IMG/VR virus record: IMGVR_UViG_3300030101_000167
Location: 1-27,343 of that record
Origin: a virus
Direction: 5' to 3' (one strand)
Length of the DNA stretch: 27,343 nucleotides
Of this stretch, positions 22,853-27,343 are shown in pieces. The notes beneath the pieces are model-generated. The model made no database searches. It was not told the origin of the DNA and saw only the letters and a program-made list of their open reading frames with translations. Numbering within the stretch: the first letter of the stretch is position 1; each line of letters opens with the position of its first letter. The translations under genes were made by a program, and so were the position numbers.

Positions 22853-23041
22853 ATGAAAAATTACATTATTTCACAATTACTTACATCTAAGAAAGTATGG
22901 TTAGGTATATCTTCAATAGTTATACCTTTAATTGCTACAACTTTAGGTGTAGATGAATCAGCAGTTTCACAGATTTGGTGGAGTCTTATAGCGATGTTAG
23001 GTGGACAATCATTAGCAGACTTTGGAAAATCAAGCAAGTAA
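22853..23041 (+). CDS. Holin-like membrane protein, 62 aa
   Basis: Two hydrophobic segments, about residues 16-32 (WLGISSIVIPLIATTLG) and 40-53 (IWWSLIAMLGG), separated by a short acidic turn, with a basic C-terminal tail. The size, topology and position right after the endolysin suit a holin that opens the inner membrane for lysis. The start of the phosphoesterase gene overlaps its last 20 bases. Confidence 0.6.
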   Translation: MKNYIISQLLTSKKVWLGISSIVIPLIATTLGVDESAVSQIWWSLIAMLGGQSLADFGKSSK

Positions 23042-23750
23042 TAGATTTAGATTAAAGCCACACGAAATTGCGGCTCTAAAAAAGATGCGAGAAACTGACG
23101 CTAGGAATGTCCTAGTTGTCGGTGACTTGCACGAGCCATTTTGTAAAGATGGTTACTTAGAATTTTGTCAAGAACAATACGAGACTTGGAATTGTACAGA
23201 TGTGGTGAAAATTGGCGACATAATAGATAATCATTATACGAGTTTTCACGAGATAGACATAGAAGCAGAATATACAGGAAAGCAAGAACTAGAATATGCT
23301 ATTAAAAAGATAGCAAGATGGTATAAGGCTTTTCCAAAAGCAACTGTAATTTTAGGAAATCACGATAGAATGATAATGCGAAAAGCACAAACATCATTAA
23401 TTCCTAGTAAGTGGATAAAATCTTACAAAGAAGTCTTAGAAGTTCCTAATTGGGAATTTGTAGATAGATTAGTTGTAGATGGTGTACAGTACATACATGG
23501 AGAAGCAGGAACTGCAAGAACTAAATGCAGAGCAGATATGATGAATACTGTACAGGGTCACTTACACACACAATGTTACATAGAACACTACGTAGGACAA
23601 AACTTTAGAGTATTTGGTATGCAGGTAGGCTGCGGTATAGACCACGATACTTACGCTATGGCTTACGCTAAGCGTGGTAAGAAGCCTTCTATTGCCTGCG
23701 GAGTAGTATTAGGTGGTACTACACCTATAAACCTTTTAATGCCTTTATAA
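23022..23750 (+). CDS. Calcineurin-like metallophosphoesterase
   Basis: A 242-residue protein with all core motifs of the metallophosphoesterase superfamily in order: GDLHEPF at 34-40 (D35, H37), GDIIDNH at 65-71, GNHDR at 112-116, a histidine in IHGE at 158-161, and GHLHT at 179-183. These residues bind two metal ions and hydrolyse phosphomonoesters or diesters. The substrate cannot be read from sequence. In phages such enzymes may act on nucleic acid ends, cyclic nucleotides or protein phosphates. It is the last large gene of the late block. The ATG at 23022 overlaps the holin-like gene; the next in-frame ATG (23085) would leave the active site intact. Confidence 0.9.
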   Translation: MENQASNRFRLKPHEIAALKKMRETDARNVLVVGDLHEPFCKDGYLEFCQEQYETWNCTDVVKIGDIIDNHYTSFHEIDIEAEYTGKQELEYAIKKIARWYKAFPKATVILGNHDRMIMRKAQTSLIPSKWIKSYKEVLEVPNWEFVDRLVVDGVQYIHGEAGTARTKCRADMMNTVQGHLHTQCYIEHYVGQNFRVFGMQVGCGIDHDTYAMAYAKRGKKPSIACGVVLGGTTPINLLMPL

Positions 23751-23827
23751 TGACTCTAAAAGACTCTACAAAACTTACACTATTCTATTTCTTACTTATA
23801 GTAATAGTTTTACTCTTAGCCACATAA
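23750..23827 (+). CDS. Micro-ORF, 25 aa, membrane peptide
   Basis: The ATG overlaps the phosphoesterase stop (TAATG). After eight polar residues comes a fully hydrophobic stretch (LTLFYFLLIVIVLLLAT) up to the stop. It could be a tiny membrane protein made by coupled translation; alternatively it is chance. It is the last frame before the control region. Confidence 0.4.
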   Translation: MTLKDSTKLTLFYFLLIVIVLLLAT

Positions 23828-23833
23828 TATACA

Positions 23834-23892
23834 TATTAACATCTTAATTGTTAATAACTTTGTAAATAATTGTGTTAATATAGTTGTTAATA
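23834..23892. promoter_or_regulatory. Operator / iteron array (four TGTTAATA octamers)
   Basis: TGTTAATA occurs at 23849-23856, 23873-23880 and 23885-23892 on the + strand and as its complement at 23834-23841. The first two form an inverted repeat with a 7-base spacer. The + copies start 24 and 12 bases apart, about two and one helical turns. The last copy covers the -33 element of the promoter, as a repressor site would. A replication initiator site is the other option. Confidence 0.6.
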
Positions 23893-23913
23893 CAAATTAT
23901 TCTTGTATGTTTG
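23884..23913 (+). promoter_or_regulatory. Bacteroidota-type early promoter
   Basis: TTG at 23884-23886 and TATGTTTG at 23906-23913 are separated by 19 bases, matching the primary sigma consensus of Bacteroidota (TTTG or TTG, then TAnnTTTG). Transcription would begin near 23920, about 20 bases before the first early gene. A second TAACTTTG at 23855-23862 could be another -7 element but has no clear -33 partner. Confidence 0.6.
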
Positions 23914-25190: not shown

Positions 25191-25718
25191 ATGACATCAA
25201 AAGATAACTTTAAAGAAATATGTGACCTTACTACAAAGGTATTAGGGTTGCCTAAAAATCATCTGCTAGTAAAAAATAGAAAAGTAGAGTATATGATGCC
25301 TAGAGCAGTTGCTTGTATGATAAGTAGACTAGAAAATTGTACAAAACATAGCACTATGTCTAAGGTATTGGGATTTAATAGAGCAACTATATATTATTAT
25401 GAAAAAGAACATCATAAAAGATTTAAATTTTGGGCTGCTTATAGAAAAGCATTTAATAAAGTATATTTAGAATATAAAAATACTGAAACTAATAAAAAGA
25501 CTTTTTTACGTTCTGCTTCTATATATAACCACTTGATTAAACATGGTGTACAAGAAAGTGACAGACCTGATTTATCTATACTAATTAAGTCAGGTAATGT
25601 ATCTGCTGAAATAAAAAGTTGTTACTTTGAATGTTCATCACAATTAAAAAAGATTAAGTTTGCATTGAAAGAATATAAATATGAACTTAAACTAATTGAC
25701 CTTAATGAAGCAATCTAA
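25191..25718 (+). CDS. DnaA-domain-IV-like DNA-binding protein
   Basis: Residues 30-90 of this 175-residue protein resemble the DNA-binding domain IV of DnaA: RKVEYMMPRAVACMISRL, then HSTMSKVLGFNRATIYYYEKEH (residues 53-74), which corresponds to the IG..F.RDHTTV helix-turn-helix signature. There is no ATPase domain. The C-terminal part (100-175) is basic and helical and not recognised. It could bind origin repeats of phage or host and steer replication or repress host initiation. Its position before the replication initiator favours a role at the phage origin. The end overlaps the next gene by 14 bases. Confidence 0.55.
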   Translation: MTSKDNFKEICDLTTKVLGLPKNHLLVKNRKVEYMMPRAVACMISRLENCTKHSTMSKVLGFNRATIYYYEKEHHKRFKFWAAYRKAFNKVYLEYKNTETNKKTFLRSASIYNHLIKHGVQESDRPDLSILIKSGNVSAEIKSCYFECSSQLKKIKFALKEYKYELKLIDLNEAI

Positions 25719-26310
25719 ACCAAATTACTACGCTGTGATTCCTGCTGATGTTAGATACAGCAAGAAGTTAACACCTAATGCTAAACTACTTTATGCAGAA
25801 ATTACAGCACTATGTAATATGAATGGTAAATGCACAGCATCTACACAATATTTTGCAACACTTTATAATGTAAGTAAAACATCTGTACAGAATTGGTTAA
25901 AAATATTAGAAGATAATAAACACATTATAAGACACAATATATTTAAAGAGGGTACTAAAGAAATTTTGTCTAGGCACATAAAATTAGTTAATACCCCTAC
26001 ACAAAATAACTTTAGAGATAATACTAATATAAATATAACTAATAATAATACTACGTATAGTAATAAAGGGCGTTTTAAAAAACCTGATTTATTAGATATT
26101 AAAAATTATTGTTTAGAAAGACAAAATAATGTAGATGCTGAAGCGTTTATAGATTTTTATGATTCTAAAGATTGGAAGATAGGAAAGAATAAAATGAAAA
26201 ATTGGAAGGCTGCTGTCAGAACTTGGGAACGAAGAGAAAATAAAAAACCAACAATGTCTAAGTTAGATGCACAAATAAATGCTTGGACTAATGCAAAAAA
26301 ACTATTATAA
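25705..26310 (+). CDS. Replication initiator with HTH domain (O-like/DnaD-like)
   Basis: A 201-residue protein. Residues 5-75 form a winged helix of the HTH_36 type (YYAVIPADVRYSKKLTPNAK, STQYFATLYNVSKTSVQNWL). A low-complexity Asn/Thr linker follows at about 105-120. The C-terminus (about 125-175) has the WKIGKNKMKNWKAAVRTWE motif common at the end of phage replication initiators. Such proteins bind the origin and load the helicase. I chose ATG 25705; an upstream TTG (25696) would add three residues. No separate helicase is encoded, so host DnaB would be needed. Confidence 0.7.
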   Translation: MKQSKPNYYAVIPADVRYSKKLTPNAKLLYAEITALCNMNGKCTASTQYFATLYNVSKTSVQNWLKILEDNKHIIRHNIFKEGTKEILSRHIKLVNTPTQNNFRDNTNINITNNNTTYSNKGRFKKPDLLDIKNYCLERQNNVDAEAFIDFYDSKDWKIGKNKMKNWKAAVRTWERRENKKPTMSKLDAQINAWTNAKKLL

Positions 26311-27077: not shown

Positions 27078-27343
27078 ATTAAAGAAAGAATTAGATAAGT
27101 GGTTTAGTCTTTATATAAGACTGAGAGATGCTACAGACGAAGGAATGGTACAATGTTTTACTTGCGGTAAGGTTGCACATTACAAAGATGGTATGCAGTG
27201 CGGACACTTTCAAAGCAGGAAACATCAGGCTACGAGATGGAATGAAGAGAATTGTCAAGTACAATGTGTAGGTTGCAATATGTTTAAGCAGGGTGAACAA
27301 TGGACATTTGGACTAAACTTAGATGCTAAATATGGTAGTAGTA
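27061..27343 (+). CDS. ninG: NinG-like recombination protein, N-terminal part (continues at 1-224)
   Basis: The gene starts at ATG 27061 and runs off the window end; because of the terminal repeat it continues at base 1 and stops at 224. This part holds the basic N-terminal helix and the zinc-binding residues CFTC (32-35), CGHF (47-50) and C65/C69/C72. The family acts on branched DNA in recombination. The last 99 bases here are the same as bases 1-99, so the gene should be counted once. Confidence 0.85.
   Translation, partial: MKSVSKLKKELDKWFSLYIRLRDATDEGMVQCFTCGKVAHYKDGMQCGHFQSRKHQATRWNEENCQVQCVGCNMFKQGEQWTFGLNLDAKYGSS
27245..27343. repeat. Terminal direct repeat, right copy
   Basis: Identical over all 99 bases to the start of the window, as checked base by base at both ends. 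The true unit length is therefore 27,244 bp. Confidence 0.95.

Follow-up and report, generated by a model that had tools for sequence, protein, structure and literature searches.

A conserved 12-bp array of altered DnaA boxes on the early promoter of a marine phage, a probable operator for a solitary DnaA domain IV protein encoded by the same phage

Introduction

The replication initiators of phages and plasmids act on iterons and operators, direct repeats at a fixed step which, together with an inverted copy, lie at the promoter of the replication operon. A precedent for self-control by a replication initiator is found in E. coli, where DnaA represses its own gene, dnaA (PMC5835720). The DnaA box is TTATNCACA (PMC5742627), and the DnaA residues that read it are R399, D433, H434, T435 and H439 (PMC7561715, PMC5742627). 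Solitary DnaA-C proteins are common among phage predictions, where they have many entries; neither a target site nor a role for a solitary phage DnaA-IV protein was found in the open-licence literature that was searched. In the Bacteroidetes, promoters follow the consensus TTTG/TAnnTTTG (PMC6847099; PMC9723704).

Here we describe a repeat array on a promoter of this type in an uncultivated phage. Our reading, to which we assign a probability of roughly 0.6, is that the array is an operator of the early operon to which a solitary DnaA domain IV protein made by the phage itself binds, probably repressing its own synthesis.

Results

The window, by which we mean the whole 27,343-base phage record, carries an exact 99-bp direct end repeat (1-99 and 27245-27343), which makes it a circular unit of 27,244 bp. 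The genome has about 31% GC, and the protein families on the record include a terminase, an SSB, a replication initiator, NinG and NinB; in relatives, NinG runs on into the genes that open the window. The closest annotated relatives are Flavobacteriia phages and, judging by the promoter type and the nearest cultured relatives, the hosts of this uncultivated marine phage family are flavobacteria.

The array gap is preceded by a metallophosphoesterase gene (23022..23750, plus strand), which served as the anchor for fetching relatives. A hydrophobic 25-codon ORF (23750-23827) overlaps the phosphoesterase stop (TAATG) and occupies the stretch ahead of the array. The gap that holds the array and the promoter is the largest intergenic gap in the window, and the description of it in the initial annotation as the only control-region gap was corrected, as other gaps of about 100 bp occur. 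Downstream, on the plus strand, lie the gene of the proposed binder (25191..25718), a solitary DnaA-domain-IV-like protein to which a C-terminal alpha/beta domain is added, and that of an HTH_36 replication initiator, Rep (25708..26310), a rival binder. With these two set aside, the only DNA-binding family detected among the early-region ORFs searched was the sigma-factor-like product of 595-1155 (phrog_36, E=2.6e-6; phrog_1740, RNA polymerase sigma factor, E=0.0026), a candidate late-gene switch by its sequence matches; the ORF at 2373, previously taken for a small HTH protein, had no Pfam or PHROG match.

The array is 60 bp long. Its inverted unit is an exact copy of TGTTAATA on the minus strand (23834..23841), and 15 bp downstream of it begin four direct units on the plus strand at exact 12-bp steps (starts at 23849, 23861, 23873 and 23885). 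Unit 1 (23849..23856) is an exact copy, TGTTAATA(A), which is TTATTAACA on the opposite strand; unit 2 (23861..23868) is TGTAAATA, with one mismatch in a slot that is conserved in relatives; units 3 (23873..23880) and 4 (23885..23892) are again exact copies of TGTTAATA. The inverted unit is the left arm of a dyad, TATTAACA-N7-TGTTAATA, that is completed by unit 1. The four exact octamers, three in the same direction and one inverted, had all been correctly located in the initial annotation, as had the 12-base step; its 24-base step is in fact two steps of 12, since the fifth copy, TGTAAATA at 23861, had been overlooked, and the steps thus form a regular 12-bp series. The helical phasing that it proposed fared similarly: one protein on a phased array is supported, but the phasing is loose, as 12 bp is not a whole turn and adjacent units are therefore rotated by about 50 degrees.

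The octamer itself is not enriched, as TGTTAATA was found 7 times genome-wide against 5.3 expected and 30 of 100 shuffles reached 7. The signal lies in the clustering and spacing of the octamers, the frequency of the octamer itself being ordinary in an AT-rich genome; scored over three units, the array at 23849 reaches 42 bits, against 5 for the unrelated site that ranks next in the window. An RNA hairpin or terminator was considered for the dyad and rejected (MFE -6.3 kcal/mol, z -2.5, with no Rfam match and no terminator-like site). A DNA site is preferred because the right arm is fixed across relatives, whereas the left arm varies in its outer bases.

The initial annotation had staked its proposal on the conservation of the octamers in relatives, and we have found that the array is conserved across about 145 related phage loci, 86 of them non-redundant. 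In a first set of 127 unique gap regions downstream of the metallophosphoesterase gene, 69 of the 127 relatives had the dyad with at most one mismatch, against none of 127 shuffles and none of 119 control stretches; with at most two mismatches it was present in 48 of the 86 non-redundant arrays, 25 of which have four consecutive units. Same-strand TGTnnATA pairs occurred 75 times at a distance of 12 bp, against 0.1 in shuffles, and 47 times at 24 bp, against 0; depending on the word chosen, 12-bp pairs were counted 49-98 times, against no more than 0.3 in shuffles, and spacings of 24 and 36 also gave strong peaks. When up to 6 mismatches were allowed, arrays of three units were found in 95 gap regions of the 127-region set and in 1 shuffled region. 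In 37 phage records, mostly of 27-30 kb, the perfect two-unit pattern stood at a single place in each record that had it, and the dyad with at most two mismatches at a single place in most. There is one array per genome, located at the head of the early operon, upstream of its genes.

A second set of 69 loci was picked by the DnaA-IV-like protein alone, independently of the gap neighbour. At 51 of the 59 loci with at least 2.5 kb upstream the array beat the best control score, which makes it a near-constant companion of the protein; most of the remaining loci show shorter, two-unit arrays by eye. In this set the distance from the array down to the protein gene is mostly 1.3-2.5 kb. A search of 84,980 genomes gave one relative (L369, PBGL02000003.1, 29,000 bases), in which the array is present; it belongs to a MAG labelled Euryarchaeota and is a probable mis-binned phage. 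At another locus (L023) a variant, GGTGAAAAACTT, is repeated every 12 bp 3' of the phosphoesterase gene, the step being kept and the letters changed, which by its sequence is a possible case of altered specificity. Matches listed by a viral pattern scan for arrays fall in many unrelated contigs and were left out of the counts.

The early promoter, identified by a pattern match to the Bacteroidetes consensus, reads TTG-N19-TATGTTTG (23884..23913, plus strand). Its -33 element, TTG at 23884-23886, is overlapped by unit 4 at 23885, and the earlier observation that one octamer copy covers this element therefore stands. TTG-N18-22-TAnnTTTG occurs twice on the plus strand of the window, and the array is at one occurrence only, that at 23884-23913. 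In 71 arrays the -7 element was mainly 44-47 or 56-57 bases, and in a few cases 33 bases, from the start of unit 1, and in 62 of the 71 this offset was 8-10 modulo 12, which indicates that the number of units varies by whole units, with the last unit staying on the -33 element. Sites that overlap promoter elements in such a fixed register are expected of an operator, whereas for an origin the register would be superfluous.

On the opposite strand the units read TTATTAACA, TTATTTACA and the like, the usual form being TTATTAACA and the form adopted in our preferred reading TGTNNATAA. The unit reads as a DnaA box with one substitution, TTATtAACA, and in the common unit it is one and the same base that differs from the box (C to A). 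The units of the window are one or two substitutions away from TTATNCACA (e.g. TTATTAACA and TTATTTACA), and no exact box is among them; of 258 units in relatives, 9 match the box perfectly and 107 differ from it by one substitution. When compared with the unit profile, the DnaA box ranked 3 of 560 permutations of its own letters.

The product of 25191-25718 has 175 amino acids and consists of domain IV and the C-terminal alpha/beta domain only, with no AAA+ domain III. Its match to the Bac_DnaA_C profile (PF08299) has an E-value of 0.003 and falls short of the curated cut-off; among its homologues 51 of 56 match at E up to 0.1, the best at 2.5e-9. Its structure model (pLDDT 93.8) matched the DnaA-DNA complexes 3pvp and 1j1v with Z scores of 15.3 and 14.6, the first unrelated chain following at 5.3; as modelled, the product has the fold of DnaA domain IV. 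At the position of R399 an arginine is found in 53 of 56 homologues and a lysine in the other three, which, as judged from the alignment by eye, are short proteins (L163, L170 and L171) from loci without an array. D433 is kept as D or N in 48 of 56, T435 as T or S in 46 and H439 as H in 45, and the position of H434 is an arginine in all 56; the protein of the window has R, N, R, A and Y at the five places. The C-terminal domain (25490-25718) is conserved in long forms and largely absent from short forms; it gave only weak structure matches (Z about 4-5) and might be a dimerisation part.

Discussion

The question of which protein binds the array can be approached by asking which gene it follows. 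With a canonical DnaA-IV protein defined as one of at least 190 bits, a cut set after the table was seen, the array accompanied 111 of 118 canonical and 6 of 19 divergent DnaA-IV proteins (Fisher nominal p 3e-9, with shared ancestry ignored). Where a canonical DnaA-IV protein was combined with a divergent Rep the array was present in 42 of 42 cases, against 6 of 12 for a divergent DnaA-IV protein with a canonical Rep (shared ancestry again ignored). Because it is kept in the first combination and often lost in the second, the array seems to follow the DnaA-IV-like protein rather than the replication initiator. Among nine listed exceptions, L337 scores as having an array farther from the phosphoesterase gene, and so does the contig of L045, as L319. 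Both proteins had been named as candidate binders in the initial annotation; the box likeness, the fold and the tracking of the DnaA-IV type make the DnaA-IV-like protein the best candidate, and the initiator fits less well.

The Mantel (distance-matrix) correlation between array and DnaA-IV sequence was positive, at 0.20, in a first set, where it favoured the DnaA-IV protein, but weak, at 0.10, in a larger set, where it was no better than for Rep or SSB; some phages with near-identical recognition helices have somewhat different units (TGTTAATAACTT and AGTTAAAAACTT), and some loci with a canonical protein keep just one or two recognisable units. The similarly weak correlation of Rep, as well as its presence in nearly all array loci, could be taken to mean that the repressor is another phage protein, be it the HTH_36 initiator or some small protein that escaped recognition, and that the units resemble DnaA boxes by coincidence. 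We regard this as improbable, given that the array parts from Rep and stays with the canonical DnaA-IV protein, that the units match the DnaA box, and that the early-region ORFs searched offered just the sigma-like protein as a further DNA-binding family. No better placed is the proposal that host DnaA binds the array and links early transcription to the replication state of the host. The units are similar to the general DnaA box, TTATNCACA, which a few of them match perfectly, but the common unit differs from it at one and the same base, the array is often lost with a divergent phage DnaA-IV protein although host DnaA is always present, and cultured Nonlabens phage P12024L, which has the same phosphoesterase-gap order, is without the array.

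That the array is, or is also, the phage replication origin, with iterons for the HTH_36 initiator or the DnaA-IV-like protein that open the AT-rich gap, had been suggested in the initial annotation and seems to us unlikely, though less so than the two proposals above. DnaA-box-like 12-bp direct repeats resemble origin elements, the array occurs once per genome, and the early operon codes for SSB and the replication initiator. However, the GC-skew check that had been recommended found no sign change near the array, the skew being positive in every 2-kb stretch of the 27,244-bp circle, which is compatible with a one-way origin; moreover, the array is kept with divergent initiators, and its last unit is held in register on the -33 element. 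An origin within the rep gene was also looked for, and an AT-rich linker was present there but a repeated iteron was not found. It is very improbable that the array is AT-rich promoter context or chance repetition with no dedicated binder: the low GC content and the ordinary frequency of the octamer would allow it, but the 12-bp periodicity and the conservation are far above shuffles and coding-region controls.

With the array, its conservation, its promoter register, its dependence on the type of DnaA-IV gene and the fold and residue match established, we infer that the DnaA-IV protein binds the array, that it does so cooperatively and that the outcome is repression rather than activation; the same anatomy of array and promoter also makes an activator possible. 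In the operator reading, the modified DnaA boxes would be read by the solitary domain IV protein, whose gene lies in the same operon about 1.3 kb downstream of the array and whose molecules would line up head to tail on the 12-bp direct repeats. With the last unit on the -33 element, an occupied array should exclude RNA polymerase, and accumulated protein would turn its own operon off or at any rate hold it down. The phage has thus probably turned a reader of replication initiation into a regulator of its own genes. More tentatively, and with somewhat more doubt than belief, we suggest a free-standing DnaA domain IV of changed specificity (H434 to R, box C to A) that polymerises on 12-bp arrays over the -33 element; through the same array, early transcription might also be linked with replication initiation.

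If the proposed binding is true, a solitary DnaA-IV protein would be assigned a defined site and a promoter, together with a regulatory loop that can be tested, and the annotation of the early switch in a widespread group of uncultivated marine phages would be aided. The phages would also supply matched variants of reader and box, a natural series in which the evolution of DnaA specificity could be studied.

Comparison with known systems

Among phages, the nearest counterparts are the proteins of Nonlabens phage P12024L (I6RTB7) and Flavobacterium phage tooticki6-1 (A0A6B9LVJ5), which likewise have the domain IV fold alone and are encoded by an early gene, but identity to them is low (16-20%) and both phages are without the 12-bp array. 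A tblastn search with two DnaA-IV proteins gave no annotated phage, whereas the fold search did find distant ones. With phage and plasmid iterons the array shares the direct repeats at a constant step and the inverted copy at a promoter of replication genes, but the proposed binder here resembles DnaA domain IV and not RepA, O or the HTH_36 protein. The DnaA-box arrays of oriC (PMC5742627) share closely spaced same-direction boxes and the same reader fold; unlike them, the phage array has 12-bp steps, is tied to a promoter and bears no sign of an origin. Autoregulation of E. coli dnaA (PMC5835720) is alike in its DnaA-type DNA-binding domain, in the boxes at its own promoter and in the expected repression. 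In the phage, by contrast, the domain IV is solitary and has no AAA+ domain beside it, the boxes are altered and form a regular 12-bp array over the -33 element, and the setting is a phage early operon with a Bacteroidetes promoter. DnaA-type autoregulation is thus known, and what would be new here is the stand-alone domain together with the altered boxes.
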